Positions 24,556 to 57,642 of a stretch of 64,000 nucleotides of DNA are shown here, in pieces. The DNA comes from Halobacteriales archaeon QS_4_69_225 (lineage in GTDB: Archaea > Halobacteriota > Halobacteria > Halobacteriales > Haloarculaceae). The notes under the pieces are model-generated. The model was not told the origin of the DNA and did not search any database. It saw only the letters and a program-made list of their open reading frames with translations. Position 1 is the first letter of the stretch; every line of letters begins with the position of its first letter. Where the stretch lies: assembly GCA_003020965.1 (NCBI GenBank), contig PXRL01000008.1, positions 170,760 through 234,759 on the forward strand, written 5' to 3'. The position numbers and the translations under genes are program-made.

Positions 24556-25020
24556 GAAGCGACCCGAGTAGTTACAGCTGGGGGGTCATCCGACGGCCCG
24601 GCGGACCGAAAGAGCGAGGCCTGCGTGGCGGCGTCGCCGTGGTTCGAGAGAGCGACGCTCTCTCGTCGCACCGGAAGAGCGAAGCTCTTCCGTAGATCGC
24701 GGATCTCCGACCCGCTCACTCCCGAAAATCTCCGATTTTCGGAGACAGCGGCCACGAGCCGGCCGAGGGCTTTCGAGGCGGTCACGGGGTCCGTCCATCA
24801 GAACACGGTCGAATTATTTCCCGTCGTACGCGGACGCCGGCTGCTCGCGGGCGTGAAACGAAGACGAGGCGAAGCGAGAGGCGCCGGATGCCGGGGAGTC
24901 CGGCGCGGGTGGTCGGGCGCTCGCGGCGGGCCGTGTGTTTCGCCATCACGACGAGAAAAGCGTCGTTCAGGCATGAACGAGTACGCCGTCATCGCGTATA
25001 AACCCTGTTGTCCGGGAAGG
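24556..25020. other. Intergenic region rich in short palindromes
   Basis: This 465-bp gap between MATE and the nitrilase gene has no convincing gene. Its first half holds the cluster of hairpins described at 24645-24742. The second half is GC-rich and otherwise featureless. It contains TATAAACC at about 24999-25006 before the end of the convergent nitrilase gene. Confidence 0.45.
24645..24742. repeat. Cluster of four triloop palindromes
   Basis: Four hairpins follow each other: CGAGAGAGC-GAC-GCTCTCTCG (24645-24665), CGGAAGAGC-GAA-GCTCTTCCG (24672-24692), AGATC-GCG-GATCT (24694-24706) and CCGAAAATC-TCC-GATTTTCGG (24722-24742). All have perfect arms of 5-9 bp and a 3-nt loop. The arms differ in sequence, so the conserved property is the geometry and not the motif. 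Confidence 0.85.
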
Positions 25021-25854
25021 CTACCGGCGGTCGTCGAGGGCGGGAAACTCCGCCCGGACCGCCTCGACGCGGTCGGGGTCGACGTCGGCGGTCACGACCG
25101 CCGGCTCCTCGCCGGTCGTCGCCACGGGCGTCCCCCAGGGGTCGTAGACGGTCGAGCGGCCGACCAGCTCCGGGTCCGGGTCCGGGTCCGGGTCGGCGTC
25201 GACGTCGGCGGCCGCCGAGCCGTTGACCGCGCCGACGTACAGCAGGTTCTCGACGGCGCGGGCCCGCGGCAGCAGCTTCCAGTGCTCGACGCGGGGGTAC
25301 GGCCAGGCGCTCGGCACCAGGACGAGCGTCGCCCCGGCGTCGACGAGCCGGCGGTACAGCTCCGGGAACCGGAGGTCGTAGCAGGTCGTCACGCCGACGG
25401 TGTGGCCGCCGAGGTCGGCCGTCGGCAGGTCCTCGCCGGCCACCAGCAGTTCGGCCTCCGCGGAGTCGTAGCCGAAGAGATGGCGCTTCCGGTAGACGAG
25501 CCGCCGGTCACCGTCGGCGTCGTACAGCACCGCGGTGTTCGCCAGTCCTTCCGGCGCGGGGACGGACTCGCCGGCGGCCGCCGACGCCGCCAGGTCCTCG
25601 ACGACCGTCCCCGCGAGAACGGCGACGTCGTTGGCGACGGCCGCCTCCCGGAGCCGCCGGTGGGTCGGGCCGCCGAGCGGCCCGGCCGCGTCGGCGTAGT
25701 CGTCGAAGGCGAAGTAGCCGACGTCGAACAGCTCCGGCAGCGCGACGCAGTCGGCGCCGTCGGCCGCGGCCCGCTCGACGGCCGCGACGGCGCGGTCGAC
25801 GTTGGCCTCGACGGCGCCGCGCTCGACGGCCTGCTGGGCGAGCGCGAGTCTCAC
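25021..25854 (-). CDS. Carbon-nitrogen hydrolase (nitrilase superfamily)
   Basis: A 277-aa enzyme starting at GTG 25854. The catalytic triad is visible: Glu in CVALPELFDVGYF (residue about 41), Lys in VYRKRHLFGYD (about 122) and Cys in GVTTCYDLRFPEL (about 156). The family hydrolyses amides or nitriles; haloarchaeal members are often called omega-amidase-like, though the substrate is unresolved. The start overlaps the stop of the SRPBCC gene (GTGA), so the two are co-translated. An Asp-Pro repeat around residue 225 (ADPDPDPDP) is an insertion unlike most relatives. Confidence 0.9.
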   Translation of the reverse strand: MRLALAQQAVERGAVEANVDRAVAAVERAAADGADCVALPELFDVGYFAFDDYADAAGPLGGPTHRRLREAAVANDVAVLAGTVVEDLAASAAAGESVPAPEGLANTAVLYDADGDRRLVYRKRHLFGYDSAEAELLVAGEDLPTADLGGHTVGVTTCYDLRFPELYRRLVDAGATLVLVPSAWPYPRVEHWKLLPRARAVENLLYVGAVNGSAAADVDADPDPDPDPELVGRSTVYDPWGTPVATTGEEPAVVTADVDPDRVEAVRAEFPALDDRR

Positions 25855-26276
25855 GGCTCGAGAAACGCCCGGGCGTCGGCCTCGAGGTTGGCCAGCTCGT
25901 CGTCGAGCTTCCGCTTGAAGTACGTCTCCACGCCCGGCAGTCGGCCGTCGACGATGAACCGGTTAATGAGCCGCGTGTCGCCGTCGTCGGTCGCCTCGAG
26001 GGTGTGTTCGCCCTGGACATTCATCGCCCGCGAGCGGCCGACGAACTCGACGTACCGCGGTTCGTCGAGTTCGACGTCCTCGGTCTCGACGGTGATGGTC
26101 CTATCGAGCCGCGGGACGGGCAGCTCGACGTGCCAGATGGCGGTCCGGTCGCCGGTCGTCTCGAAGTCCTCGACGACGCTTATCGCCCCGGCGCGGCGCT
26201 CGGCGTCGGCGATGAACGCCCAGACGTCCGGCGGCGGGGCGGGGAGCTCGAACACCCGCTCGACGCGAACGGTCAT
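25851..26276 (-). CDS. SRPBCC family (START-like) protein
   Basis: A 141-aa protein starting MTVRVERVFELPAPPPDVW. It has the SRPBCC fold pattern: a first beta strand and PPPDVWAFIAD helix, central strands (IWHVELPVPRLDRTITVETE, RYVEFVGRS) and a long C-terminal helix KRKLDDELANLEADARAFLE. The fold makes a hydrophobic ligand pocket. The binding partner is unknown. The ATG at 26276 fits the fold better than the upstream ATG at 26303. It heads a two-gene unit with the nitrilase. Confidence 0.82.
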   Translation of the reverse strand: MTVRVERVFELPAPPPDVWAFIADAERRAGAISVVEDFETTGDRTAIWHVELPVPRLDRTITVETEDVELDEPRYVEFVGRSRAMNVQGEHTLEATDDGDTRLINRFIVDGRLPGVETYFKRKLDDELANLEADARAFLEP

Positions 26277-26488
26277 GACCGTCCGGAGGGGAGGCGGGAA
26301 CAAAAAGGCCGTCGTCGTGTGCCCGCGGGCCGGCCGTCAGCGGTTTCGAGGCGGAGCCTCCGGCCTCAAGGAGTGAGCGACGCGAACGAGTAGGCCGGAG
26401 AGGAAGCCGACAACTCCGACACATTCCATGAACTATTGACCCTCCTCCCTCCCCGATATTGATAAACCATCATGCATACGTCTGACGT

Positions 26489-27772
26489 ATGGAGGTGCGG
26501 CGGACAGTCCCGGTCAAACTCGACGTGGACAGTGACGACGCCGCACTTCTGCACGAAACAGTAGACGAGTTTTTGTGGGCCGCCAACCACGTCGTCAACC
26601 ACGCTTGGCAGGGCGAGTACAAGACGACCAGCAAGGCACAGTTGCAGGAGGAAACCTACGACGAGGTGCGCGACCGGACACGGTTGCACGCGAATCTCGT
26701 TCAGAACGCTCGCAACAAGGCTGCTGACGCCGTACAGGGCGTTGTCGCTCGCTGGAGACAGGGCGAGTACGCGGGCAAACCACACTTCTCGGAGCCGACC
26801 GCCGTGTACGACAAGCGGTGTGCCACCTTCCACGACGAGTACGTATCGCTGGCAACCGTCGACGGACGCATCGAAGTCGAGTACGTCCTCCCCGACCCCG
26901 CCCGCGACACACCCCACAGTCGGTACCTCGCGGCGAGTGGTTCCTTCATCTCCGCACAAAGGCGGAGGTGGAGTCTGACACGCCGGAACGGGCGACGACC
27001 GGGCACAGTACAGTCCTCGGCGTTGACCTCGGTGTGAACCAACTTGCGGTCACTTCGACAGGCACGTTCTGGACGGGCGACGAGTTCGACCACTGGCGAC
27101 GGGAGTACGAGAAACGGCGCGGGTCACTCCAACAATGTGGGAGTCGCCACGCTCACGAAAACATCCAGGCAGTCGGGCGGAAGGAAACAGGTCGATTCAA
27201 AATGATGCTCCACCGGATTGCCAACGGCATCATTGAGGAGGCAACCGAGAACGGCTGTATGGTCATCGCCTTCGAGGAATTGACCGGCATCCGCGACAGG
27301 CTTTCTGGCGCATCGTGGGGACACAAATGGGCGTTTGAGCGGTTGTACGAGTACGTCGATTATAAAGCCGAGTTACACGGTATCGACGTGAAACAGGTGG
27401 ACCCGGAGAACACGTCCCGGCGGTGTTCGACATGTGGGTTCACGCACCCGGACAACCGCGACGGTGAGAGCTTCGAGTGTCTAAAATGTGGCTACCGGAA
27501 CCACGCCGACTACAACGCGGTCGCCGGACTACGTCCGGCGGGCAGCAAAGTCGCGTAGCGACTTTGCGACGGCGAAGAACATCGGCTTGCGGTATCTCCG
27601 TCGTAACCAAACCGGGGATGACGGAGGCGCACCCGTAGGCGTGCGCTTGAATCGCGGGATGTTGAACGCGAACGGAGAATTTGAACCTCCTGCCGGGGAG
27701 TCCGGTCAGAGCGGGAGTCCACGCGAAAGCCCCACCCTCAACGAAGCGAACAGCGAAGCCGTGAGCGAGTAG
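26489..27772 (+). pseudogene. tnpB: tnpB (RNA-guided nuclease of IS1341-type element), broken
   Basis: Frame one (26489 to about 26935) has the amino half, [17 protein letters not shown] one-base shift near 26930-26938 moves into [14 protein letters not shown] and the RuvC domain: [12 protein letters not shown] with the first Asp, [10 protein letters not shown] with Glu, then a zinc ribbon (CSTCGF and CLKCGY) and HADYNA with the last Asp. Directly after HADYNA, two triloop palindromes (27522-27567) interrupt the normal [11 protein letters not shown] ending, which resumes in another frame and stops at 27772. All catalytic residues survive but the reading frame does not. Confidence 0.85.
27522..27567. 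repeat. Palindrome pair inserted in tnpB
   Basis: CGCCGGAC-TAC-GTCCGGCG (27522-27540) and GCAAAGTCGC-GTA-GCGACTTTGC (27545-27567) sit 4 nt apart between HADYNA and the AKNIGLRYL ending of TnpB. Since family members normally run directly from one motif to the next, this looks like an insertion of about 50 bp that also shifts the frame. Confidence 0.8.
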
Positions 27773-27780
27773 GGTGGGGT
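27731..27780. repeat. Right-end hairpin of the tnpB element
   Basis: Perfect 9-bp arms CCCCACCCT/AGGGTGGGG enclose a 32-nt loop with AACGAAGCGAAC and GTGAGCGAGT. In IS605-family elements this end and the tnpB 3' region produce the guide (omega/re) RNA, whose guide part would begin after 27780. A very similar hairpin lies at 57539-57587. Confidence 0.7.
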
Positions 27781-27783
27781 AGT

Positions 27784-28008
27784 TTACTCGGGCGTGACGC
27801 GCCAGGTCGTCGAGCGGGCCCGGGACCACTTCTCGATGTCGACCTCCTCGGACTGCTCGTCGAGGTGTGGGAGACGGGAGCCGACCTGCTTGGCCGTCAG
27901 GCCGATGGCCTCGGCGATGCCCTTCGAGCGGAAGTACCGCTTGCCTCCCGCCGCCCGGTCCCGTAGGTACGAGAGAATGCGCTCGTCCTCCTCGCTCAGT
28001 TCGGTCAT
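27784..28008 (-). CDS. Small winged-helix protein (DUF7123-like)
   Basis: A 74-aa protein starting MTELSEEDERILSYLRDRA. It has a compact winged-helix: KRYFRSKGIAEAIGLTAKQV holds the recognition helix, and SRARSTTWRVTPE forms the wing strand. This is a common haloarchaeal small DNA-binding family, which I recall as DUF7123. The ATG at 28008 fits the family start; an in-frame ATG at 28044 adds 12 residues. It lies just beyond the right end of the tnpB element and was not interrupted by it. Confidence 0.8.
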   Translation of the reverse strand: MTELSEEDERILSYLRDRAAGGKRYFRSKGIAEAIGLTAKQVGSRLPHLDEQSEEVDIEKWSRARSTTWRVTPE

Positions 28009-28063
28009 ATTTCGAACAACGGGGGCGAGCATCTTAAGCCCCATCCCTCGGGCTGCCGGCTAT

Positions 28064-28080
28064 GACCGCCCAAGGCGGTC
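28064..28080. repeat. Single triloop palindrome
   Basis: GACCGCC-CAA-GGCGGTC, a perfect 7-bp stem with a 3-nt loop, upstream of the winged-helix gene. It matches the geometry of the palindromes elsewhere in the window. Confidence 0.6.
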
Positions 28081-28151
28081 CCGTCGGGAGGATGGAGTTC
28101 AGACGATTCCGTCCGGATCGAGGAATCTCGGAGGAATCGGGGCCGGCAGTA

Positions 28152-28337
28152 TCAACCGTAGGCGTGGTAGGCGGCCACCGACAGCCCGCCGGCGGCCATC
28201 GCGACCGCGAACGACCAGCCCGACGCCACCTGATCGCCGGTGATGCCGAAGACGGTCATGCCGACGGCACCGAACAGGGCGACGAGTCCGAAGGCCAGCG
28301 GAACGGCGATGCGCTTGTCCGACGGGGCCGTGCTCAT
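28152..28337 (-). CDS. Two-helix small membrane protein (DUF7525-like)
   Basis: A 61-aa protein with two hydrophobic segments, VPLAFGLVALFGAVGMTVFG (residues about 12-31) and WSFAVAMAAGGLSVAAYHAY (about 41-60), after a short charged amino end. The length and layout match a small haloarchaeal membrane family of unknown role, which I recall as DUF7525. It stands alone, divergent from the LEA-like gene. Confidence 0.65.
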   Translation of the reverse strand: MSTAPSDKRIAVPLAFGLVALFGAVGMTVFGITGDQVASGWSFAVAMAAGGLSVAAYHAYG

Positions 28338-28436
28338 GGGCGGCGGTACGCGACGGCGGGTCTAAATCCCGTCGGTCGCGGGCGGGAGTTCGCCGACCCA
28401 GAGGTATTTTGACGGGGCCGGGCGTCGGCACGAGTG

Positions 28437-29567
28437 ATGGACGGACTCAGGGAGATATTCACCGCCAGACGGCTCAAGATCGCCGGCGCGGTCGTCGGCG
28501 TGGTCGTGGCGCTGCTGGCGGGCGCGTTCGCGCTGGGCGTGCTCGGGACGCCGACCGTCGAGGCGGTCGACAACGAGTTCGGCGAGGTCGACGACGAGAC
28601 GACCATCGTCTTCACCGACCTCGTCGTCAACAACCCCAACCCGGTCGGCGTACAGCGCGGCGACACGACGATCAACTACACCGTGCGGATGAACGACGTC
28701 CCGATGGCCGTCGGCGGCCGCGAGGGGCTGTCCGTGGAGTCCGGCAACTCGACGCTGGCGTTCACCACCCGGATGGACAACGAGCAGATCCCGGCGTGGT
28801 GGGTGACCCACGTCAACGGCGACGAGCGGACGGTCGTCACCATCAACGCGACGGTCCGGGCGTCGCTGCTCGGCCAGCGGCAGTTCGACATCACCCAGGA
28901 AAAGGAGGTGGAGACGAACATCATCGGGCAGTTCAACTCCGAGGAGACCCGACCCGTCGAGGCCGACAGCCCGCCGCCGGGCGTCGAGAACCCGATTCTG
29001 TACGTCAACCGGACGAGCGCCGCCTGGGGGGAAGCCACCGCCGAGCGGACGCCCATCGACATGGAGTTCGTCGCCTACAACCCCAAGACGACGCCGTTCA
29101 CCGTCACCGAACTCGGCTACGAGATCACGATGAACGGCGTGGCGGTCGGCGAGGGGCAGACGGACGAGCCGGCAACCATCCCGCCCGGCAGCACGGAGAC
29201 CATCCGGACGGAGACGGCCATCCGCAACGAGAACCTCGACGACTGGTGGGTGACGCACCTGCGGAACGACCAGGTGACCGACCTCCGCATCGAGTTCTAC
29301 GCGGTGGTCTCCAGTGACCTCCTCCCGCAGGACGTCCGGGTGCCGCTGGACGAACTCACCTACGAGCGGACCATCGAGACCGACATCTTCGGCAACGAGA
29401 ACGCCTCGACGGACGGGGCGACGCCGACGCCGGGCGGCGACGGGGACGGGACGCCAACCCCAACCCCGACGCCGGAGCCGGTGGACCCCGTCGAGACGCC
29501 GACGGACCCGATCGACGAACCGGTCGGCGACGGGACGCCGACCTCGACCGACGACGACCTGTTCTGA
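28437..29567 (+). CDS. LEA type 2 / WHy domain membrane-anchored protein
   Basis: A 376-aa protein starting at ATG 28437. One membrane helix at about 15-38 (VVGVVVALLAGAFALGVLG) is followed by two WHy-type domains, about 50-165 (with VNNPNPVGVQRGDTTINYTV) and about 190-310 (with AYNPKTTPFTVTELGYEITM). Both carry the NP motif and a WWVTHxxND segment. The C-terminal 65 residues are a Thr/Pro/Asp-rich tail. WHy domains are linked to desiccation and stress in other organisms. Here the domains would sit outside the membrane. Confidence 0.82.
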   Translation: MDGLREIFTARRLKIAGAVVGVVVALLAGAFALGVLGTPTVEAVDNEFGEVDDETTIVFTDLVVNNPNPVGVQRGDTTINYTVRMNDVPMAVGGREGLSVESGNSTLAFTTRMDNEQIPAWWVTHVNGDERTVVTINATVRASLLGQRQFDITQEKEVETNIIGQFNSEETRPVEADSPPPGVENPILYVNRTSAAWGEATAERTPIDMEFVAYNPKTTPFTVTELGYEITMNGVAVGEGQTDEPATIPPGSTETIRTETAIRNENLDDWWVTHLRNDQVTDLRIEFYAVVSSDLLPQDVRVPLDELTYERTIETDIFGNENASTDGATPTPGGDGDGTPTPTPTPEPVDPVETPTDPIDEPVGDGTPTSTDDDLF

Positions 29568-29609
29568 GCGAGGCCGCCGCGGGACACACCGCCCGACGGC
29601 GGGCCGGCC

Positions 29610-30644
29610 TCACTCGATGGAGACGTGTTCGCTGTTTTCGTTCAGCGAGAGGTTCGTCGCGATTTCGGCGATCCGGACGGCGTACTGTGCGGTCTGGCCG
29701 ATGCTGACCAGCACCTCCCGGACCCGGAGGAGGTCCTCGTTGGGCATCTCCTCGAGATCGTCGAGGATCTCCGTCTCGCGGTCGCGGACGGCGGCGAACC
29801 GCTCGCGGGTCTCGATGGCCATGTCGTAGTCCCGCTCGACGGCCGCCCGCACGCCGAGTTCCGTGATGGCGTTGACGTCGTCGGTCAGCTCCCGGATGCG
29901 GCGCATCGTCGCGTCGTCGACCTCGAGCGTGTGGCCCTCCGTCTCGAGGACGATCTCGGCGATGTCCTCGGCGTTGTCCGCCGTGAGCTCGAGGTTCTTC
30001 GCGACCGCCCGGTAGCCGATGAGCGGGAAGCCGGAATCGAGTTCGACCGCCCGGGCGAGGTTGGGGTTCTGGTAGGCGGTGAAGATGAGCCGCAGCAGCA
30101 GCACGAATATCTTGTTGGCCTGCCGCTCGCGGTTGAGCGCCCGCTGGGCCAGGTCGGGATCGCCGCGGGCCAGCGACTTGATGGCCTCGTTGCGCATCGT
30201 CGAGCCGGTCGACTCCAGCCGTCCCAGCAGGTTGTCCAGCGAGAAGTCCTCCGGGTCGACCGAACACCGGATGGCGATGCGCTCGGGGGTCTCCTCGATG
30301 ACTCCCAGTCCCATCAGCTGCGTTTCGGCGTTGTACACGGCGTTGATCTGCGCGGAATCGAGCGTGCCGTTTTCCTCGACCTCGACGTGGATGATGCGCC
30401 GGCCGAGCACGTACTGTGCGACGATGGCCCGCTCGACGGCGTCGGCGTCGAGGTTCTGGGCGTGGATGACCGCCTCGCTTTCCTCCTGCTGGACGGACTC
30501 CGGCATCACCGTCAGCGTCCCCTTCGACCCCATCCGCAGCGACACCTCGTCGCCCTTTTCGACGTCCTGTTCGCCGGCCCACTCGGCCGGGAGCGTCATC
30601 GCCAGCGTCGACGGCCCGAGCCGCTGTACCTTGCGGGTTTCCAT
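29610..30644 (-). CDS. phoU: AbrB-PhoU type phosphate uptake regulator
   Basis: A 344-aa protein. Residues 1-48 form a SpoVT/AbrB-type DNA-binding domain (METRKVQRLGPSTLAMTLPA). Two PhoU-like helical domains follow at about 115-220 and 230-335 (SIGQTAQYAVRIAEIATN near the end). Haloarchaeal fusions of this kind regulate phosphate uptake genes. No pst genes are adjacent, so it probably acts in trans. It is transcribed divergently from threonine synthase with a 126-nt intergenic region containing repeated TATACACC sequences. Confidence 0.9.
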   Translation of the reverse strand: METRKVQRLGPSTLAMTLPAEWAGEQDVEKGDEVSLRMGSKGTLTVMPESVQQEESEAVIHAQNLDADAVERAIVAQYVLGRRIIHVEVEENGTLDSAQINAVYNAETQLMGLGVIEETPERIAIRCSVDPEDFSLDNLLGRLESTGSTMRNEAIKSLARGDPDLAQRALNRERQANKIFVLLLRLIFTAYQNPNLARAVELDSGFPLIGYRAVAKNLELTADNAEDIAEIVLETEGHTLEVDDATMRRIRELTDDVNAITELGVRAAVERDYDMAIETRERFAAVRDRETEILDDLEEMPNEDLLRVREVLVSIGQTAQYAVRIAEIATNLSLNENSEHVSIE

Positions 30645-30679
30645 ACCGTCGAATCGTCGGCACGGACCTTAAGGTTCAC

Positions 30680-30722
30680 TATACACCGGACAAGACACCG
30701 GCAGATAATTATACACCCGGAC
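30680..30722. promoter_or_regulatory. Repeated TATACACC(C)GGAC motif between phoU and threonine synthase
   Basis: TATACACCGGAC (30680-30691) and TATACACCCGGAC (30710-30722) are spaced 30 nt, with a weaker GACACCGGC between them (30694-30702). They lie between divergent starts at 30644 and 30771, so they may be paired TATA/operator elements shared by the two genes. The regulator could be the AbrB-PhoU protein itself; this is inference. Confidence 0.45.
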
Positions 30723-30770
30723 GGGCGGTGCCGCAGGAACGCTTACCGGGCGGGGCGCCGAGACGCCGGC

Positions 30771-31961: not shown

Positions 31962-32076
31962 CACGGGCGGTCGTACTGCCGGCCGTGCCGGCAGGCGGAT
32001 CTCGGAACGGAACGAAACGCTCGGCGCGGTCGGGCCGAGGCAACGAGGTCACAAGATCACGGACGTACGGGCGGTA

Positions 32077-34378: not shown

Positions 34379-34418
34379 GCCCTCGCTTTTTTCTCGCCCG
34401 TCGACAGTCGTATCTTAC

Positions 34419-37747: not shown

Positions 37748-37748
37748 G

Positions 37749-46119: not shown

Positions 46120-46317
46120 GGTACACGACGACGGAGGGCTCCGTTTTATGACGGCGTCGTTGGCAGACCTGTCTATCGAGTCTGTGCCGAAGTAACACCG
46201 CGAGACGGGAGAACGCGACGACTTCTCGCCGCGAACGGAGATAGTACACGCCGCAACGCAGCCTCTGCCCCACAAATCAGGGGACCAACAACGAACGACC
46301 CTGCAAGCATCCGCCGA

Positions 46318-46494
46318 GGGGGCGTTCTTCGAACGCCCCCGAGGCGGTTCCCCGGACGAGGGCGCCGCAGGCGTCCGAGTCCGGTAGCGCGCGCGGACCG
46401 GAGCGGCGCGAAGCGCCGCGGAGGGAGCACGCGCGCATATTTTCCCCACGTTTTTGCCGAGAACCGGGGTCGCGCGCCGTCCGGCGCGCGACCC
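46318..46494. repeat. Second cluster of short palindromes
   Basis: In the gap between the frameshifted secreted protein and the coiled-coil gene: GGGGGCGTTC-TTC-GAACGCCCCC (46318-46340, inside CCGCC/GGCGG outer arms), an imperfect GGCGCC-GCA-GGCG hairpin (about 46361-46375), GCGGCGC-GAA-GCGCCGC (46403-46419), and a 13-bp stem GGGTCGCGCGCCG with a TC loop (46467-46494). The last one is a strong stem 24 nt downstream of the convergent coiled-coil stop region and might end transcription. Confidence 0.8.
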
Positions 46495-46517
46495 GTGTTC
46501 TCGTGCAAAAAGTGGTT

Positions 46518-48126: not shown

Positions 48127-48188
48127 GACGGGCCGGCCGGGTCGCCGCCTCGAACAGCCTCTTGACCGACCGGGCCCCGGTGGCGGAC

Positions 48189-49097
48189 ATGGACGAGGAA
48201 CCGACGGAGAACATCGGCAGCGACAGCGGCACCGAGATGGGCTCCGAGCCCGCGACCGCCGACGGCCGCGCCGGGCGGGTCGTCGACCGCCTCGGCGAGC
48301 TGTACTGGCGGAAGCACTACGGCGGCCGCGACGCCTTCGAGTGTCTCGTCCGGACGGTACTCAGTCAGAACACCGCCGATACGGCCAGCCAACGGGCCCA
48401 CGACGCCCTGATGGACCGGTACGGAAGCGAGACACCGCGCGCCTCGGGACGGGACGGGGGTCCCGCGAGCGAAGCGAGCGGGACCTCGTCGGACCGCGGG
48501 TCCGACGGCGAGCACGGCAACCCGCGAGACGATGAGGGCGATCTCGCGGCGGCGCTGGCCGACGCCCGCCGGGACGACCTCGCCGAGACCATCTCCCCGG
48601 CGGGCCTCCAGAACCAGAAGGCCGAGACGCTGGTCCGGCTGGCCGGCCGGGTTCGCGAGGAGTACGACGACGCCGAGGCGTTCGACGAGTTCGTCGCGGG
48701 GGGCGACCCCGGGGCGGTCCGGGAGGCGCTGCTCGAGATGACGGGCGTCGGCCCGAAGACCGCCGACTGCGTGCTGCTGTTCGCCGGCGGGCAGGCAGGC
48801 GTCTTTCCCGTCGACACCCACGTCCACCGCATCGCCCGCCGAATCGGGCTGGCGCCGGCCGACGCCGACCACGAGACGGTTCGGGAGCACCTCGAGACGG
48901 CCGTCCGCGACGAGAACTGCGGCTTCGGCCACACCGCCATGATACAGTTCGGCCGGGAGTACTGCACCGCCCGCGAGCCCGCCTGCCTGGAAGGCCCCGA
49001 AGCGTGCCCGATGGCGGATCTGTGCGATAAGGTCGGCGTCCTCCCCGAGACCGGCGCGGTCGTCGATCCCGCGGAGGCGCTCGCAGGCGACGACTGA
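48189..49097 (+). CDS. nth: Endonuclease III (DNA glycosylase/AP lyase)
   Basis: A 302-aa base-excision repair enzyme. The helix-hairpin-helix MTGVGPKTADCVLL carries the catalytic Lys; VDTHVHRIARRIGL carries the catalytic Asp. The [4Fe-4S] cysteines are spaced C-x6-C-x6-C-x5-C (CTAREPACLEGPEACPMADLC), where bacterial enzymes have x2 in the middle. Residues about 80-120 hold a Gly/Ser/Asp-rich insert (ASEASGTSSDRGSDGEHG) that coincides with a palindrome pair. The core is intact so activity is likely. The ATG at 48189 is chosen over a TTG at 48162. Confidence 0.9.
   Translation: MDEEPTENIGSDSGTEMGSEPATADGRAGRVVDRLGELYWRKHYGGRDAFECLVRTVLSQNTADTASQRAHDALMDRYGSETPRASGRDGGPASEASGTSSDRGSDGEHGNPRDDEGDLAAALADARRDDLAETISPAGLQNQKAETLVRLAGRVREEYDDAEAFDEFVAGGDPGAVREALLEMTGVGPKTADCVLLFAGGQAGVFPVDTHVHRIARRIGLAPADADHETVREHLETAVRDENCGFGHTAMIQFGREYCTAREPACLEGPEACPMADLCDKVGVLPETGAVVDPAEALAGDD
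48460..48507. repeat. Palindrome pair inside the endonuclease III gene
   Basis: GTCCCGC/GCGGGAC arms (48460-48466, 48478-48484) enclose GAGCGAAGCGA; CGTCGGACC-GCG-GGTCCGACG follows at 48487-48507, 2 nt on. Together they encode a Gly/Ser-rich loop between two conserved helices. This gives a coding-sequence example of the same paired-hairpin arrangement. Confidence 0.75.
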
Positions 49098-49146
49098 GCC
49101 CCGACGTGGGCGAGGGCTTTTGACGTGGCACGCCGTAAAGCGGACG

Positions 49147-49371: not shown

Positions 49372-49437
49372 CCCCGCCCCGCCCCTCGCCGACGCGGGCC
49401 GCGGCGCTTTTGTCCCGCCGCGCCCGACGGCCGGACG

Positions 49438-50940: not shown

Positions 50941-51052
50941 CCGCCGCGGCGCCGGTCGGTTCGAGGCGCGGCCGGTACCGGTCGCGGACCGGCGGGCCGG
51001 CATTCGTCGCCGGCGGCAACGGACGGTCTTCGTTTTTATGCGTTCGCCCTGG

Positions 51053-51586
51053 TCACGGCCGCCGGCGGAGCCTGCGGCCGGCCGCGACGTGATCGAGGAG
51101 TTCCCCGACGGACAGCGGCTCGTACCCCAGGAGCTCGACCCCGACGTTCACCCGCCGGGCGTCGGGGTCGAGGAACGGGTACTCCTCGGGGCGGGTGTCG
51201 TGGTGGTGGCCGTGGACGAGCCAGTCGTCGCGGTCCGGCGGGGCGTCGGCGGGGCGGTGGACGCAGCGGAAACGGCGGCCGCCCGCCTCGAAGCGGTACG
51301 ACTCCCGGGCGTCGACGGCGTGGCTCCGGCGGGCGCCGTCGTCGTGGTCGCCGGCGACGAACGTCACGTCGCCGCGCAGCCGGCTCAGCCACTGCCGGAC
51401 CGTGGTCGGCTCCGACGGGACGGCGAGGTCGCCGACGAAGACCACCTCGTCGCCCGCCCCGATGACGCGGTTCCAGCCGGCGAGCAGCGCGTCGTTCATC
51501 GCGCCGACGGAGCCGAACGACCGGCCGGTGTAGTCGAACACGTCGGCGTCGCCGAAGTGGGTGTCGGCGACGAGATACCGGGTCAC
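51053..51586 (-). CDS. Metallophosphoesterase
   Basis: A 177-aa enzyme starting at GTG 51586 (MTRYLVADTHFGDADVFDYT). Metal ligands are seen in VADTHFGD, EVVFVGDLA, FVAGDHDDGA (with GDHD replacing GNHD) and WLVHGHHHD. It is a short calcineurin-like phosphodiesterase. Its start overlaps the stop of the PUA-like gene (GTGA), making the third gene of an overlapping operon with an RNA methyltransferase, so RNA-related action is possible. Substrate unknown. Confidence 0.88.
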   Translation of the reverse strand: MTRYLVADTHFGDADVFDYTGRSFGSVGAMNDALLAGWNRVIGAGDEVVFVGDLAVPSEPTTVRQWLSRLRGDVTFVAGDHDDGARRSHAVDARESYRFEAGGRRFRCVHRPADAPPDRDDWLVHGHHHDTRPEEYPFLDPDARRVNVGVELLGYEPLSVGELLDHVAAGRRLRRRP

Positions 51587-52104
51587 AGCTGTCGGCGCCG
51601 GCCCTTCGGCACCTGCGAGCGCAGTTCGCCGTGGAGGTAGAGCCCGACCCCGATCGGCTCGACGTCGTCGGCGATCTCGTGGGCGACGGCGAGGTAGCCC
51701 CAGTCGCCGTCCCAGTCGGGGTCGGTCGTCTCCCCGCGGAGGAAGGCCCGCGCGTCGGCGTCGTCGAGGACGACGACGTTCCGCGTCGCCGCGCGGCCGA
51801 ACCGCTGGACGGCGTCCGTCGTCGGCTTCCAGTGCTCCTGTCGGGTCCGGAGGAACGTCATCCCCAGCGCCTCGATCTCGGCCGGCGAGTCGACGTCGGC
51901 CGCGAACGCCCACACCTTGCCGGCGCCCTTCTCCCAGAAGGTGTGGCCGTCGAAGGCCGCCGGCTCGAGGCCGAACCGCTCGACCCACCACGTCACCACC
52001 TCGCGGCGGGTGGCCCGGCCCTCGACGACCCGCTCGTCGGCCGTCGCCGGCAGCCGGTCGAACCGCCCGCCGTCGTTCCGAGAACTCCCGTTCTCGCGGC
52101 TCAC
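51583..52104 (-). CDS. PUA-like protein associated with RNA methyltransferase (DUF7122-like)
   Basis: A 173-aa protein starting at GTG 52104 and overlapping the methyltransferase stop. The amino half has VVTWWVERFGLEPAAFDGHT and FWEKGAGKVWAFA; the C-terminal half has FLRTRQEHWKPTTDAVQRFG and GVGLYLHGELRSQVPKGRR, resembling the RNA-binding PUA-type domain of NOP2/Sun proteins. In other organisms the domain is fused to the enzyme; here it is a separate, co-translated chain that probably positions the methyltransferase on RNA. Confidence 0.78.
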   Translation of the reverse strand: MSRENGSSRNDGGRFDRLPATADERVVEGRATRREVVTWWVERFGLEPAAFDGHTFWEKGAGKVWAFAADVDSPAEIEALGMTFLRTRQEHWKPTTDAVQRFGRAATRNVVVLDDADARAFLRGETTDPDWDGDWGYLAVAHEIADDVEPIGVGLYLHGELRSQVPKGRRRQL

Positions 52105-53057
52105 GCCGCCACCTCCAGCTTCGCACAGAAGAAGCCGCCGGTGTCGTTGTGGTGGGGGTAGACGCGCTTGGCCCGCCGGACGGACGGGTCGTAGCGGTCG
52201 CCGTCCCACTCGGCCACGCCGGCGACGTGCTCCACGTCGAGGTCGAACTCGACGAGCTGGCAGTCGTGGTCGGCGATCACGTCGTCGAGGACGGCCTCGT
52301 TCTCCTCGGGGGCGAACGTACAGGTCGAGTAGACGACGGTCCCGCCGGGGCGGGTCACCTCGACGGCTCGACCGAGAATGTCGCGCTGGACGCCGGCGAT
52401 CCCCTCGACGTGGCTCGGCGACCACTCCTCGAGGACGTCGGGGTTCTTCCGGACGGTGCCCTCGCAGGAGCAGGGGACGTCGACGAGCGCGCGGTCGAAC
52501 GGCTCGACGCCGTCGGACGTGGTCCGACGAGCCTCCGAGCGCCGCTCGGAGCCGCCGAACGACTTCAGCGAGAGGTGGCGGGCGTCGGCGTTGGTGACGG
52601 CGACGCTGGTGACGCCGCAGCGCTCGGCGTTGGCCCGCAGCGCCGACAGCCGCCCGAGGTTGCTGTCGTTGGCGACCAGTAACCCCTCGTCGTCCATCAG
52701 CGCCGCCAGCTGAGTGGTCTTGCTGCCCGGCGCGGCACAGGGGTCGAGCACCCGCTCGCCGGGGTCGGGGTCGAGCACCCGGGCCGGGAGCGCCGACACC
52801 TCCTCCTGGCCGTACACCCAGCCGTGGACGAACGGCCACGTGTTGCCGGGCGAGACGTCGTCGGCGAGCCGGAACAGGCCGTCGTGCCACCCGACCGGCT
52901 CGAAGCCGACGCCGGCCGCCTCGAAGGCCCGGGCGACCCGGTCCGGCGTCGCCTTGATCCCGTTGACCCGGACGACCGACGGCAGCGGGCGCTCGCAGGC
53001 CGCCCGGAACGCCTCGGGGTCGGCCACGATCGGGTCGTACCTCGCGAGCGGGTCCAT
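52101..53057 (-). CDS. RsmB/NOP-family RNA cytosine methyltransferase
   Basis: A 318-aa SAM-dependent 5-methylcytosine RNA methyltransferase. SAM is bound by VLDPCAAPGSKTTQLAALM, then NDSNLGRLSALRANAER and TNADARHLSLK. Both catalytic cysteines are present, in VDVPCSCEGTVRKNP and VYSTCTFAPEENEAV. An insert of about 14 residues (GSERRSEARRTTSDG) between the SAM fold strands coincides with a palindrome pair at 52511-52551 and stays in frame. Start is ATG 53057. It leads a three-gene overlapping unit. Confidence 0.92.
   Translation of the reverse strand: MDPLARYDPIVADPEAFRAACERPLPSVVRVNGIKATPDRVARAFEAAGVGFEPVGWHDGLFRLADDVSPGNTWPFVHGWVYGQEEVSALPARVLDPDPGERVLDPCAAPGSKTTQLAALMDDEGLLVANDSNLGRLSALRANAERCGVTSVAVTNADARHLSLKSFGGSERRSEARRTTSDGVEPFDRALVDVPCSCEGTVRKNPDVLEEWSPSHVEGIAGVQRDILGRAVEVTRPGGTVVYSTCTFAPEENEAVLDDVIADHDCQLVEFDLDVEHVAGVAEWDGDRYDPSVRRAKRVYPHHNDTGGFFCAKLEVAA
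52511..52551. repeat. Palindrome pair inside the RNA methyltransferase gene
   Basis: CGTCGGAC-GTG-GTCCGACG (52511-52529) and CTCCGAGC-GCC-GCTCGGAG (52533-52551) lie 3 nt apart. Read from the gene strand they encode SERRSEARRTTSDG, an extra loop in the Rossmann fold. The geometry matches the tnpB insertion. Confidence 0.85.
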
Positions 53058-53252
53058 AGGATGGCGTCGGACGGCCGCGGGCTTGTCGGTGTCGGTTGCC
53101 CGCCGGGCCGCGGCCGCGTCGTCGGCGGTGCAGGTGCGGCGGACGCGAAACCGGAGGTCGGGCCGGCCGAGACGGGGCGGGGGAGCCACCGGCAAGCGCC
53201 GGACTGGGCCCGGGTGGCGTGCGCTTAAGACGTCGCCGTCCCTACCTCGGAC

Positions 53253-53990
53253 ATGGCACGTGTCCAGGTCCACGCCGACGACGTCGAGCTCGACTCGCCC
53301 GTCCTGGTCGAGGGGCTTCCGGGTACCGGTCTCGTCGGGAAGATCACCGCCGACAATCTCGTCGAGCAGTTCGACATGTCGCTGTACGGCTCGCTGTACT
53401 GCGAGGGGCTGCCGGACGTCGCCGTCTACCACGGCGAGCGATCGGACGTCCTGCCGCCGGTCCGGCTGTACGCCGACGAGACGCGGGACCTGCTAGTCCT
53501 CCAGAGCGACGTCCCCGTCTCGCCGTCGGGGGCGCCGGCCTTCGCCGACTGCATCACCGACTGGTTCGAGGACAACGACGTCTTTCCGCTGTACCTCAGC
53601 GGCCTCCCCGAGGAGAAAAACGGCTCCCCGGAGCTGTACGGCGTCGCGACGGGCGAGGCGACGACGGCCCTCGATGCGGCCGGTATCGTCCCGCCGCGGG
53701 AAAACGGCCTCGTGACCGGGCCGACGGGGGCGCTACTGGCGCGCGCCGACCGGGCCGGCCTCGACGCCGTCGGCCTCGTCGTCCAGACGGACCCGCAGTT
53801 CCCCGACCCCGAGGCCGCACGGGTCGTCCTCGAACACGGTGTCGACCCCATCGCCGGCGTCGAGGTGGACACCGACGCCCTCGTCGAGCAGGCCGGCGAG
53901 ATACAGTCCGCCCGAGAGGAACTGGCCCGGCAGCTGCAGGACGCCGGCGACGAGAGCACGCAGGCCCGGACGATCCGCGGGTTCCAGTGA
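53253..53990 (+). CDS. Proteasome assembly chaperone family protein (PAC2)
   Basis: A 245-aa protein starting MARVQVHADDVELDSPVLVE. The PAC2 fold opens with GLPGTGLVGKITADNLVE and continues through the LYGSLYCEGLPD and DLLVLQSDVPVS strands to VTGPTGALLARADRAGLDAVGL. The C-terminal helix is EQAGEIQSAREELARQLQ. Archaeal members assist 20S proteasome assembly or act as ATP-independent chaperones. It is a single gene, with no proteasome subunit next to it. Confidence 0.9.
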   Translation: MARVQVHADDVELDSPVLVEGLPGTGLVGKITADNLVEQFDMSLYGSLYCEGLPDVAVYHGERSDVLPPVRLYADETRDLLVLQSDVPVSPSGAPAFADCITDWFEDNDVFPLYLSGLPEEKNGSPELYGVATGEATTALDAAGIVPPRENGLVTGPTGALLARADRAGLDAVGLVVQTDPQFPDPEAARVVLEHGVDPIAGVEVDTDALVEQAGEIQSAREELARQLQDAGDESTQARTIRGFQ

Positions 53991-54194
53991 CAGGAGCGGT
54001 GTTTCGTGAGGAGGGAGTAGCGTCTTCTGGCGGCGATGACGGCGTGTCCGAACGCCCTTTCCCGCCCGCGGAGCGAGCGGTCGACCCCGTTCGGACTCCC
54101 GCCCGACGCCGGCCGACCGGCCCGCTCTCTCGCAACTGAACGCGGCCGTAGCCGGGCGCGTAACGCTTTTGATACTCGCCGCGAACCGCGACGT

Positions 54195-54896
54195 ATGGCA
54201 TCCAGTCACGGGGGAATCGAACGGGGACGGGGGCTGCCGGTCGACGCGGCCGGGACGCTGGACCGCCTCCGACGGGCGGTCGACGACGCACGGATACGCG
54301 AACATCTCCGCCGGACCGAGGCGGCGCTGCGGGACGCCGACCGCGACCTGACGCCCGAACGGCACCGTCGCCGCGAGCGCCACCTCGACCGCCTGGCCGA
54401 CTACCGCGAGCGCGGCGACTTCCCGACGAACCGGCACCGCTCCGACCGCGTCCCGCTGTTCGTCGGCGACGACGGGACACCGTGTGCGATGGCATATCTC
54501 CTGCGCGAAGACGGCCGCGAGGACCTCGTCGAGGCGGTGACGACCGCGGAGCCGACGGTTCGCATCGAGGAGTTGCCCGACGGCCACCCCGTCGTCGAGT
54601 GGGTCGAGGCCAACGGCCTGACGCGGGCGGAGGCCGCACGCGTCCAACCGGCCTACCCCGAGGGGATCCAGTTCGCGACCACCTGCGGGCCGGTGCCCTG
54701 CTGGCTGGCGGGAGGGTTCGCCTCCCTCGTCGGACTCGCGGCCGCCGGCGCCGTCGAGTACGTCGGCTACCGGCTGGCCGGCGACGCCTTCCCCGACAAC
54801 GCGCTCAAGCGCCGGGCGACGCTGGCGTATCTCACCGCGCTGGCGCTGTTCGTGGCGCCGCTCGTCGGGCTCGTCGCCTTCGCGCTGTTCCCATGA
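54195..54896 (+). CDS. Membrane protein with helical cytosolic part
   Basis: A 233-aa protein starting MASSHGGIERGRGLPVDA. Residues about 20-135 are charged and helical (RREHLDRLADYRERGDFPTN style; LREDGREDLVEAVTTAEP). A membrane segment at about 172-192 (AGGFASLVGLAAAGAVEYVG) and one at about 209-231 follow. Two cysteines (CGPVPCW) precede the first segment. The stop overlaps the next ATG (ATGA), so it is translated with the following exodomain protein. Function unknown. Confidence 0.68.
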   Translation: MASSHGGIERGRGLPVDAAGTLDRLRRAVDDARIREHLRRTEAALRDADRDLTPERHRRRERHLDRLADYRERGDFPTNRHRSDRVPLFVGDDGTPCAMAYLLREDGREDLVEAVTTAEPTVRIEELPDGHPVVEWVEANGLTRAEAARVQPAYPEGIQFATTCGPVPCWLAGGFASLVGLAAAGAVEYVGYRLAGDAFPDNALKRRATLAYLTALALFVAPLVGLVAFALFP

Positions 54897-55795
54897 CGCG
54901 GAGCGCCCGACGACGGCTCGCCGCCTTCGCCGGCGGCCTGACCGTCGCCTTCGGGCTGTTCGTCGGGCTCGTCGGCGGGCTGGTCCAGGCGCCGGGGCTC
55001 GGCGGGCTGACCTACCTCGCCCCGGAGCGCTCCGGACCGGCGGCGGTACTCGGACTGCGTTTCGTGAAGTGGGCCGGCTACCCGGCCGCCGTCGCGCTGT
55101 ACCTCCTGCTGCCGGTCGCCGTCGCGGTCGTCTCCCGCCGCAGCGACCGGGTGTCGCTCCACCCCGCGTGGGCGGTCGCCGCCGTCGCTCCCGCGCTGCC
55201 GGTGACGGTCGCTCTCCCGCTGACACCGTTCGGGGTGTTCGTCCTCGACCGGGCGTTGGTCCTCACCGGCCTGACCACGGTCGGCGTCGCCCTCCTCGTC
55301 GTCGTCCTCCTGCTGAACGAGTTCGTACGGACCGGCGACAACGGTCGCACGTCCCCGCTTGCGGCCTTCGGCAACGTCGCGTTCGTCGCGCTCTTCGTCG
55401 TCGGGGTGGCGTTCGGGAACCTGTTCGCCGGGCCGGCCGGTGCGCTCGTCCAACAGGAAGACGACCGAGGCGTTCCGAGCGCGCAGTTCGACGTCGTGGA
55501 GGTCGAGACCGACGACGGGACGGTGGTGGTGTTCACGCTCGCCGAGTACGTCACGCGCGGGGGCGGCGGCCAGCTACCGGCCGAGGACCTCCGGATCGCC
55601 GGCGAGGGGTTCGCGAACGTCTCGGAAGCCGGCGTGACGGAGCCGGGCCCCTGGCCGGCCTCGGAGGCCAGCGACGACGGCGAGGTCGTCAGGCAGGGAG
55701 ACTCGGTGGCCGTCGGCGCGGGCGACGACTGTCGAATCCGAATCATCCACGACGACGGGCGCACGACGACGCTCGCCGACCACGAGTGCGGGTAG
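54893..55795 (+). CDS. Membrane protein with pilin-like C-terminal exodomain (copy 1)
   Basis: A 300-aa protein starting MTRSARRRLAAFAGGLTV. Five or so membrane segments fill residues 10-190. The C-terminal 110 residues are a secreted-type beta domain: VVVFTLAEYVTRGGGGQLPA, LRIAGEGFANVS, DSVAVGAGDDCRIRII. The pattern of GGD/GGG-xxLPAEDLxxxGEGF and GDxVxVG matches the exodomain of haloarchaeal type IV pilins, though no pilin signal is present. A paralogue follows at 56094. Confidence 0.68.
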   Translation: MTRSARRRLAAFAGGLTVAFGLFVGLVGGLVQAPGLGGLTYLAPERSGPAAVLGLRFVKWAGYPAAVALYLLLPVAVAVVSRRSDRVSLHPAWAVAAVAPALPVTVALPLTPFGVFVLDRALVLTGLTTVGVALLVVVLLLNEFVRTGDNGRTSPLAAFGNVAFVALFVVGVAFGNLFAGPAGALVQQEDDRGVPSAQFDVVEVETDDGTVVVFTLAEYVTRGGGGQLPAEDLRIAGEGFANVSEAGVTEPGPWPASEASDDGEVVRQGDSVAVGAGDDCRIRIIHDDGRTTTLADHECG

Positions 55796-55920
55796 CGCCG
55801 GTCGTCGGCCGTATCGCGGACGGGACGGGTCCGAGGAGACCCGCTCCGGTCCGTCGCAAATCCGGCCCGCCGGAGCGGCACAAGAGACTTGATTTCGCAC
55901 GACGACAGTCAGTTGCAAAC

Positions 55921-56097
55921 ATGTCCGCGCGCGGAACGTCCGAGCCGCTGCCCGCGGCCGCAACCGACGACCCGGATCGCCTTCCGCGGGCCGTCGGCGA
56001 CGTCAGACCCGGTGAGCGCATCGCCCCGCCGGTGCCGCCGGCACGTCCGACCGCCGGAGCGCCCGTGGCGCCCGCGGCGCCCGGGCCGCGAGGATGA
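55921..56097 (+). CDS. Small Pro/Ala-rich protein
   Basis: A 58-aa frame starting MSARGTSEPLPAAATDDPD and ending with PPARPTAGAPVAPAAPG. Its stop overlaps the next ATG as ATGA, which supports translational coupling. It is low in complexity and has no domain. It may be a real short leader peptide gene, or merely an accidental frame upstream of the paralogue. Confidence 0.42.
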   Translation: MSARGTSEPLPAAATDDPDRLPRAVGDVRPGERIAPPVPPARPTAGAPVAPAAPGPRG

Positions 56098-56960
56098 CCC
56101 GGAGCCCGCGGCGGCGTCTGGTCGCCTTCGCCGGCGGGCTGACGCTGCTGGTCGGCGCGCTGGGCGGCGTCGTCGCCGCGATGGTCTTCCCGGCGGACCT
56201 CTCGACGTCGCTTCCGGAGGTGCGGATCGGCCAGGGGGTCGTGGTCCTGCTGCTCGCCGTCGTCGTGCTGCTGTACGTCGTCGTCCCCGTCGGCGTCGCG
56301 GCGGCACTCGCCCGGGAGCACGGCCACCCGCTGATCTACGGCGCCGCCGCCCTGGCGGCCATCGCGGTGCCGGTCGTCGCGCCGGTCGCGTTCGTCTGGA
56401 CCGTCGAGGAGGCCGCCGTCGGGACCGCACTCTTCCGGTTCGTGGCGACCGTCGCCGGAATCGCCGCCGTCCTGGTCGGCGTCGGGGTCGTCTTCCGGCG
56501 GGTCACCCCGGCGACCGAGGGGACCGGGTGGGTGCTGAGCCTCAACCTCGCGGTCATCTTCCTGTTCCTCCTCGGGGGCCTCGGCGTCCAGGTCGCGGCG
56601 CCGGGCTTCGCGGACCGACACACGGCGGAGACACGACCGGACGTCGAACTCGCGTTCGAGGAACGGACGACCGACGACGGCCGGCTGCTCGTCATCGAGC
56701 ACGCCGGCGGCGACCCGGCACCGCCGGGCCGGCTCGACGTCCGTGGCAGAGGGTTCGCCGACGTCGAGGGCGCCGACCAGACCGGACCGGGACCGTGGGC
56801 CGGCGAGGCGACCGGACGGGCTCCCCGCCACGACGGTCCGGCCGTCGTCGAGGGCGACACGGTCACCGTCGGCGTCACCGACGACTGCGGGCTGATAGTC
56901 GGCGAGGGACCGGGACTGCGGGCGCCGCTCGATCACTACGACTGTTCGAAGTCCGAATGA
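56094..56960 (+). CDS. Membrane protein with pilin-like C-terminal exodomain (copy 2)
   Basis: A 288-aa paralogue of the 54893 protein, starting MTRSPRRRLVAFAGGLTLL. It has four or five membrane segments and an exodomain with LLVIEHAGGDPAPPGRLDVR, GRGFADVEGADQTGPGPW and EGDTVTVGVTDDCGLIVG. This copy matches the pilin exodomain pattern more closely, including the EHAGGD start. Both copies end with a cysteine pair (DDC...C), a candidate disulphide. Function unknown; surface exposure is likely. Confidence 0.68.
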   Translation: MTRSPRRRLVAFAGGLTLLVGALGGVVAAMVFPADLSTSLPEVRIGQGVVVLLLAVVVLLYVVVPVGVAAALAREHGHPLIYGAAALAAIAVPVVAPVAFVWTVEEAAVGTALFRFVATVAGIAAVLVGVGVVFRRVTPATEGTGWVLSLNLAVIFLFLLGGLGVQVAAPGFADRHTAETRPDVELAFEERTTDDGRLLVIEHAGGDPAPPGRLDVRGRGFADVEGADQTGPGPWAGEATGRAPRHDGPAVVEGDTVTVGVTDDCGLIVGEGPGLRAPLDHYDCSKSE

Positions 56961-57036
56961 GTCGCAGTGTCGGCTCCGCGGTTGGAGTCACGATCGGATA
57001 CGAAGGTCTATGCCCGAGCGCGAACGACCCTCCGGC

Positions 57037-57534
57037 ATGCCGCCGATTCACGACGACCAGCGGGTCGCGGTCATCGCCGACTCCCAGAACCTCTATCACT
57101 CGGCCCACAGCCGCTACTCGCGGAACGTCGACTACACGGAGCTGCTCGACGCCGCCGTCGGCGACCGCGAGCTGGTCCGGGCCGTCGCCTACGTCATCCG
57201 CGCGGACTCGCCGGCCGAAGAGGACTTCTTCGAGGCGCTGCGGGACATCGGCTTCGAGACGAAGATCAAGGACATCAAGACGTTCCCCGACGGCTCCCAG
57301 AAGGCCAACTGGGACCTGGGGATGTGTCTGGACGCGGTGACGCTGGCCTCGAAGGTCGATACGGTCGTGCTGTGCAGCGGCGACGGCGACTTCGAGCGGC
57401 TCTGCACCCACCTCCGCCACGAGGGCGTCCGCACCGAGGTGTTCGGCTTCGGCTCCTCGACGGCCGAGGAACTGGTCGGCGCCGCCGACTCCTTCGTCGA
57501 CATGAGCGAGAACGAAGAACGGTACCTCCTGTAA
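57037..57534 (+). CDS. LabA-like NYN domain protein
   Basis: A 165-aa protein starting MPPIHDDQRVAVIADSQNLY. The NYN (PIN-like) nuclease fold has acidic residues in VIADSQNLYHSA, KANWDLGMCLDAVTL and VVLCSGDGDFERLCTHLRHE, all conserved positions for metal binding. Family members are putative RNases. The ATG at 57037 begins the known family amino end; ATG 57010 would add nine residues. It is the last core gene before the second island. Confidence 0.88.
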   Translation: MPPIHDDQRVAVIADSQNLYHSAHSRYSRNVDYTELLDAAVGDRELVRAVAYVIRADSPAEEDFFEALRDIGFETKIKDIKTFPDGSQKANWDLGMCLDAVTLASKVDTVVLCSGDGDFERLCTHLRHEGVRTEVFGFGSSTAEELVGAADSFVDMSENEERYLL

Positions 57535-57538
57535 CCGA

Positions 57539-57642
57539 CCCCACCCTACTTCGCTCGGCCTTACGGCCTCGCTCGTTAAGGGTGGGGCCACCGATAGAGC
57601 GGAGCTCTATCGAGGCCTCGAAAGACTTCGTCTTTCGGTGGC
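57539..57642. repeat. IS-end-like hairpin joined to a palindrome pair
   Basis: CCCCACCCT/AGGGTGGGG arms (57539-57547, 57579-57587) match the right-end hairpin of the tnpB element at 27731-27780, in reverse orientation. Right after it, CGATAGAGC-GGA-GCTCTATCG (57592-57612), the palindrome CGAGGCCTCG and CGAAAGAC-TTC-GTCTTTCG (57619-57637) lie inside outer arms GCCACCGA/TCGGTGGC (57587-57594, 57635-57642). Confidence 0.82.

Follow-up and report, generated by a model that had tools for sequence, protein, structure and literature searches.

Short palindromes with three-nucleotide loops, often two in a row, recur along a 64,000-nucleotide stretch of DNA from Halobacteriales archaeon QS_4_69_225 (hereafter the window, whose positions are used throughout), raising the question of what such paired hairpins are and how they came to be where they are. 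A first-pass annotation, made from the letters alone, had pointed out at least six such places and proposed an amplified hairpin element, spread either by a transposase acting on single-stranded hairpins, as with bacterial REP sequences, or by replication template switching. The source of the window is a metagenome-assembled genome (MAG; G000, 2.95 Mb in 28 contigs, 89% complete; the window is C8:170760-234759), and its relative G012 is ~94.5% identical to it over 81 kb of selected alignments; below, G numbers denote genomes compared and L numbers fetched DNA stretches (L040 and the G018 contig behind L042 and L065 are one record). On the basis of sequence comparison, we consider it about 60% probable that the hairpin pairs are non-autonomous mobile DNA units, for which we propose a single-stranded DNA fold, an enzyme supplied in trans and upkeep of the arms by template switching.

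All six places hold palindromes of the kind described, and such hairpins are in excess over randomised sequence in the window and in larger samples alike. Triloop hairpins with arms of at least 8 bp number 17 in the window, where 20 dinucleotide shuffles average 3.1, and those with arms of at least 9 bp number 9, where the average is 1.0. Tandem triloop pairs occur 23 times in 464 kb of G000 and 0–2 times in five order-2 Markov simulations, an approximately 20-fold excess, and 31 times in 293 kb of G012, where simulation gives 0–1. This excess is specific to three-nucleotide loops: 21 pairs were counted at loop 3 and 0, 1, 1 and 2 at loops of 2, 4, 6 and 8, the 18 pairs with five-nucleotide and the 11 with seven-nucleotide loops probably being largely the same hairpins recounted with a bigger loop. 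A C-G pair closes the loop in 47 of 60 triloop hairpins with arms of at least 9 bp in the genome sample. The paired geometry holds in its strict, perfect form at four of the six places (24645-24692, 27522-27567, 52511-52551 and 57592-57637), whereas at 46318-46419 and 48460-48507 the partners of perfect triloops are imperfect or differently shaped.

The central evidence comes from homologous sites with and without the hairpins. For 280 units (single hairpins, pairs and longer chains) from the fetched stretches, both 45-bp flanks were sought elsewhere; adjacent flanks were scored as an empty site, and flanks an equal distance apart as an occupied one. Once identical DNA under two locus ids was removed, 29 pairs, 76 single hairpins and 6 longer chains were testable (34, 92 and 8 before removal, the number with empty sites being unchanged), and an empty homologous site was found for 18, 2 and 0 of them, respectively. 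Of the 18 automatic empty sites, ten were kept as distinct and clean once the alignments had been read (see the table), and L038 adds one such event; the two single-hairpin matches (L071:9583, L096:8972) are weak. In six occupied/empty pairs from several subfamilies the insert measures 49–54 bp, and no target-site duplication of constant length is present in these six, the shared bases ranging inconsistently from 0 to 3. The clearest chromosomal case is L092:12407, where G012 has the insert, G000 lacks it and homology extends for ~1 kb on each side; it is also the one site at which chromosomal presence and absence between these two genomes is seen in the alignments. Orthologous occupied and empty sites exist both here and among the orthologues of the gene at 52511. 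Judging from the aligned copies, the hairpin pair is present or absent as one unit of ~45–54 bp, and the amplified, inserted element first suspected is upheld, with the pair, not the single hairpin, as its unit.

Three of the clean events lie in the window. The insert at 27518-27569 breaks the tnpB reading frame; it is present in a G012 copy (L013), and 12 genomes together provide 19 distinct homologous tnpB places that lack it, one of them a further copy in G000. The site at 52508-52552 is occupied in G012 and empty in G018, G011, G010, G007 and G009. The insert at 57588-57641 follows the foot of a CCCACCCT..AGGGTGGG palindrome, and its site is empty in two repeat copies, L070 (G012) and L021 (G001), and occupied in Halarchaeum and Halomarina plasmids, where the linker and the CCAC/GTGG ends are identical and the arms are changed on both sides (CGATAGAGC, CGATGGAGC, CGACGGAAC). 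This shared occupancy may reflect an old insertion carried along by the host repeat, and the CCAC/GTGG ends could close a three-way junction. As first noted, three pairs lie inside genes, namely tnpB (27522), the RsmF-like methyltransferase gene (52511) and the HhH-GPD repair gene (48460). In the last of these the region around the hairpins (48430-48524) is variable in length, with ~94 bp lacking in G007 and G009; since its length varies elsewhere too, 48460-48507 is not proven to be an insertion. The chain at 24639-24745 begins with a hairpin that starts GTGGTTCGA, as in subfamily A (below), and has the linkers TCGCAC, TAGATC and TCACTC. Its last three hairpins recur at L083, L099 and L098 with ~90% identity, while L085 matches its first hairpin together with the left flank (87.5%) and L092 matches a stretch of 32 bases (97%); related chains occur in both G000 and G012, its predicted DNA fold has a z of -4.6, and an empty site for this chain was looked for and none found.

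Table. Positions of the hairpin features, their host reading frames and the sites scored in the empty-site comparison
Feature	Position	Strand	Remarks
Four-hairpin chain, third hairpin imperfect	24639..24745		First two hairpins form the strict pair 24645-24692; hairpins extend to 24742
52-bp double-hairpin insert	27518..27569		Hairpins 27522-27540 and 27545-27567; linker GGCA; CGG at both sides
tnpB (IS605/IS1341-type) reading frame cut by the insert	26818..27558	+	Pfam Cas12f1-like_TNB, OrfB_IS605
45-bp in-frame double-hairpin insert	52508..52552		Hairpins 52511-52529 and 52533-52551; placement of the outer edges uncertain by a few bases
Methyltransferase-like open reading frame (ORF) with the 45-bp insert	51583..52890	-	DUF7122; weak PUA-like RsmF match just below the Pfam cut-off
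54-bp double-hairpin insert	57588..57641		Hairpins within 57592-57637; CCAC-hairpin-AGGCCT-hairpin-GTGG
One imperfect and one perfect hairpin in an HhH-GPD (endonuclease III-like) gene	48460..48507		ORF 48162-49097
Different multicopy intergenic repeat, ~200 bp	46306..46515		Contains the 46318-46419 hairpins
Clean events	window 27522, 52511, 57592; L071:16996, L086:348, L088:8071, L092:12407, L092:16790, L099:13331, L107:7734		Kept after the alignments were read
Pair sites set aside	L080:16831, L088:8124, L088:8277, L096:8826, L096:8855, L098:7211, L099:1514		Weak or tandem-repeat

Pairs recur within IS605-type elements, within the linkers of older pairs and sometimes within genes, and chains grow by pairs, with 2, 4 and 6 hairpins. 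L099 reads GTCGTT-hairpin-TGATGA-hairpin-AACCAC, and L096, with similar flanks, holds an extra pair in the linker; L088 is a six-hairpin chain, of which L092 carries a homologue with disturbed stems. Some individual insertions clearly sit in palindromes of IS605-type elements, and a stem encloses 8 of 38 subfamily-A copies, mildly more than the shuffled mean of 2.7 (the maximum in 200 shuffles being 8). Dense arrays of five to seven consecutive triloop hairpins were also seen at L099:1514-1625 and L096:8826-9044, the former with successive pairs that have a common GGCA linker inside a palindrome resembling an IS605 right end. In G120, two double-hairpin units ~40 bp apart recur together at L119, L120, L122 and L123, as if carried by one larger repeat. 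A GGGGAGG/AGAAGCCGACA site (L071:16996, L085:5079, L107:7734) holds homologous pairs with covaried arms in two species, possibly as a hot spot or as an old insertion riding the host repeat.

One subfamily, A, is defined by the pattern GTTCGA-N(8-24)-TCGTGATGACGA-N(8-24)-TCGAAC, in which ends and linker are fixed and most arm letters are free. Within the order, 203 of 392 genomes carry it, from 67 of 95 genera, and a reversed control pattern gave no match among the matches listed; a phylum-wide draw gave 22 of 33 genomes inside the order and 0 of 163 outside. In 38 copies with flanks, orthologues included, the ends are GTC (35/38) and CAC (35/38), and no conservation of the flanks beyond them is apparent by eye. 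The inverted ends are GTSGTTCGA..TCGAACSAC, with one mismatch, in units shorter than 75 bp. From GTS to SAC, two-hairpin units span ~56–70 bp, and four-hairpin forms ~116–121 bp. Distinct arms number 39 and 36 among 134 copies. That arm sequences differ, as had been stated, is correct between sites; inside subfamilies there is conservation of the linkers, the stem bases and the ends of the element. In G017, a tnpA-tnpB element has an in-frame subfamily-A copy near the 3' end of its tnpB, and plasmids of cultured strains carry the elements as well, with four hairpins in Halomicrobium urmianum and two in Natribaculum and Halomontanus, so they are not merely an artefact of MAG assembly. A larger autonomous element bounded by subfamily-A ends was also sought and rejected: in the loci scanned nothing but further hairpins, over 55, 56 or 106 bases, lies between the two halves, and one changed base accounts for the two left halves that lack a strict right half. 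The distribution is patchy, with 0 to 20 copies seen per genome. Together with the empty homologous sites, the insertions into coding sequence and the nesting, this contradicts the idea that the hairpins are fixed regulatory or terminator structures under selection, which is barely credible even though no annotated feature lies under the matches in the plasmid search.

The arms of the hairpins vary in concert. In a sample of 200 distinct subfamily-A copies, taken in list order among the matches listed, 328 of 400 hairpins are perfect, and the 2519 stem pairs comprise 2430 Watson-Crick, 28 G.T, 21 A.C and 40 other combinations; Watson-Crick pairing thus reaches 96.5%, compared with 57.7% when the 3' letters are shuffled among copies. 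Selection on an RNA would be expected to raise G.U clearly above A.C, and here G.U barely exceeds it. Loops were counted in perfect hairpins with three-nucleotide loops (309 of the 400), and GNA or TNC accounts for 202 of these, where equal base use would give one eighth. In DNA, GNA triloops with a C-G closing pair are unusually stable. Each loop is about as frequent as its reverse complement (GAA 53 and TTC 63; GGA 29 and TCC 38), and, among copies alike except for one loop, 13 of 67 differences are exact loop inversions, against a null mean of 6.0 and with none of 2000 random draws reaching 13, a significance that is only indicative because the null assumes independence among copies that are in fact related. 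Predicted DNA folds of five units are stable (z -2.8 to -6.9), and both hairpins form in them. Compensation between arms in G000 and G012 orthologues involved too few varying hairpins to count.

These data bear on RNA-mediated spread, in which a structured RNA would be reverse-transcribed into new sites, as suggested for the mitochondrial elements of Allomyces. A two-hairpin fold and the lack of a constant target duplication would suit it, but G.T is about as rare as A.C in the stems, both loop orientations are about equally common, and the window and four loci match nothing in Rfam at gathering scores, an absence that also rules against a known structured RNA in these five sources; we regard this route as improbable. 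Taken together, the covariation, the rarity of G.T, the GNA and TNC loops and the excess of inversions suggest folding at the level of DNA, with upkeep by template switching. Compensatory changes and loop inversion are among the reported footprints of that process (PMC8794818, PMC8604942), and loop inversions are described as few in rRNA (PMC8794818).

If template switching maintains the arms, it might also have created the hairpins in place, with no mobile element involved. Near-perfect arms of varied sequence and inverted loops would agree with this, and the mechanism is documented for RNA genes (PMC8794818). Nevertheless, the empty sites read show neither arm, the linkers and ends are kept over 67 genera, and what is gained is pairs, not singles, so that origin in place is distinctly improbable. 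Template switching, one of the two routes initially envisaged, thus finds support as a means of upkeep and not as the origin of the inserts, for which no arm can be seen at the empty sites read and which have linkers and ends in common with distant copies.

The other route first envisaged is REPIN-like, with pairs moved in trans by the Y1 (HUH) transposase of IS200/IS605 elements acting on single-stranded hairpins. Hairpin DNA without a constant target duplication is what such a mover might leave; several copies lie within or beside tnpA/tnpB elements, and Y1_Tnp is present in 13 of 20 genus genomes. Against it, Y1_Tnp was not found in G000 (89% complete) or in G238 (99% complete, with 18 copies), it is equally frequent in copy-rich and copy-free genomes (9/10 in each) and so does not track copy number, and the arms lack the sequence conservation typical of REPs. 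A Y1 transposase as mover is thus not supported in any of three tests (the G000 search, the genus genomes, and the copy-rich and copy-free genomes), and we consider it unlikely. Overall, the observation made in the first-pass annotation is partly confirmed and its interpretation partly supported.

We therefore return to the non-autonomous mobile unit. It comprises ~45–60 bp, made up of a short end, a first hairpin, a fixed linker of 3–10 nt, a second hairpin and another short end, each hairpin having an arm of 7–13 bp and a C-NNN-G loop that is mostly GNA or TNC. The unit would fold as single-stranded DNA, and an enzyme supplied in trans would recognise the fold and the ends and join the unit into DNA. 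Hairpin-templated copying, by template switching, would keep the arms near-perfect and invert the loop, so that the fold could be retained as the sequence changes. More tentatively, and with less than even confidence, the fold may be the main thing that this mobile DNA passes on: a structure-reading archaeal enzyme would copy or cut the twin GNA/TNC-triloop unit as folded single-stranded DNA, and template switching would repeatedly rewrite its arms in both strands, structure and mobility outlasting the drift of sequence across the order.

Several points weigh against the mobile-unit reading. Seven of the 18 automatic empty sites were set aside as weak or as tandem-repeat artefacts, and L093:12202, as the G012 orthologue of the window site at 52511, is the same event and is not counted separately. 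The clean comparisons mostly set one copy of a repeat against another, with long two-sided homology for only some; L071:16996 and its G012 counterpart are a repeat-copy comparison in which an orthologous locus is not proven. Only at 27522 and 52511, each with several empty genomes, is the polarity of insertion firm. Insertion into hairpin loops, suspected by eye, found no support as a general rule, the control test giving a combined p of 0.51 (10 of 11 listed observed empty sites found) and a p of 0.02 when five joined sites are included (5 of 6 found). The predicted folds of the 57588 unit, with its CCAC/GTGG, and of the G017 unit leave the outer inverted ends unpaired, and the loop-inversion statistic carries the caveat given above. 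Finally, a mobilising enzyme was not found, and neither a transposition intermediate nor a live event was observed.

Two other families of intergenic repeats are present in the window. In the repeat at 46306-46515, a long palindrome, CCGAGAACCGGGGTCGCGCGCC..GGCGCGCGACCCGTGTTCTCGTGC, occupies 46450-46515; its outer motifs (CATATTTTCCCCA.GTTTTTGCC / GTGCAAAAAGTGG) are kept in aligned copies and its interior varies. The second, of ~150 bp at 53998-54150, often occurs as two half-units and has many matches, of roughly 70–90% identity, in G012 and the fetched G000 stretches.

Such elements have several possible counterparts. The double-hairpin elements of Allomyces mitochondria, reportedly described by Paquin and colleagues in 2000, likewise place two adjacent hairpins as one unit, as do 18 of 29 testable pairs here. 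The mobility of the Allomyces elements is reported to have been inferred from related species, without flanking duplications, and Volvox organelle genomes contain palindromic repeats that are short, often nested hairpin inserts with AT-rich loops of 3–5 nt (PMC2670323, PMC2800124). Unlike these organelle elements as described, ours occupy archaeal chromosomes and plasmids, have GNA/TNC triloops and keep conserved ends across an order; the likeness is one of analogy only, and we claim no sequence relation. REPINs, associated with RAYT transposases, are described as REP palindromes that replicate as doublets and not singly (PMC3116915). The hairpin pairs resemble them, so described, as non-autonomous doublets of hairpin DNA, and differ in that REPs are sequence families tied to RAYT, whereas here the arms vary, each part is a complete triloop hairpin, no Y1 association is found, and the ends are GTC..CAC, with no conserved palindrome bearing a GTAG or CGTC tag. 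Among haloarchaeal repeats, PATEs are palindrome-associated elements resembling IS605 ends, with 52-bp terminal-only forms (PMC3119063). Our units have in common with them the host group and the presence of palindromes; by that description PATEs have no terminal inverted repeats, unlike subfamily A, several units of which lie inside IS605-type elements.

The nearest match by description is SMR-A, the small mobile repeats (HqIRS42/43/55) of Haloquadratum walsbyi, reported by Dyall-Smith et al. in 2011 to be ~110 bp long, with inverted ends and no target duplication, commonly >95% identical within a type, and inserted within the near-terminal palindromes of IS605-type elements, its mobilisation being called enigmatic (PMC3119063). 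Like SMR-A, the elements are small haloarchaeal repeats, too short for a transposase, with inverted ends (subfamily A) and no target duplication in the six occupied/empty pairs. As to targets, we have individual cases in IS605 palindromes and the 8 of 38 enclosing stems, set against the p of 0.51 in the general hairpin-loop test. Unlike SMR-A, the two-hairpin units are shorter than ~110 bp and their arms diverge freely, although four-hairpin forms come near that length; the passages on SMR-A, which was compared by description only, mention no paired triloop hairpins or covarying arms. Haloquadratum plasmid PL47 contains no tandem triloop pair, a result that covers the plasmid and not the chromosome, and among the papers listed in searches of an open-access library none has a title or shown abstract on paired triloop hairpin elements in haloarchaea. 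With a minimal unit of ~50 bp whose ends are known, with empty sites found in nature and with hosts that can be cultured, a class of haloarchaeal repeats called "enigmatic" would become open to experiment. The units offer natural sequences in which to trace how template switching could keep hairpins perfect and invert their loops, and they include a small piece of DNA that has entered a conserved gene in frame. What this analysis adds to the known repeats is the anatomy, the covariation, the growth by pairs and the order-wide range; in behaviour, SMR-A appears closest, with the mitochondrial double-hairpin elements and REPINs as analogues.

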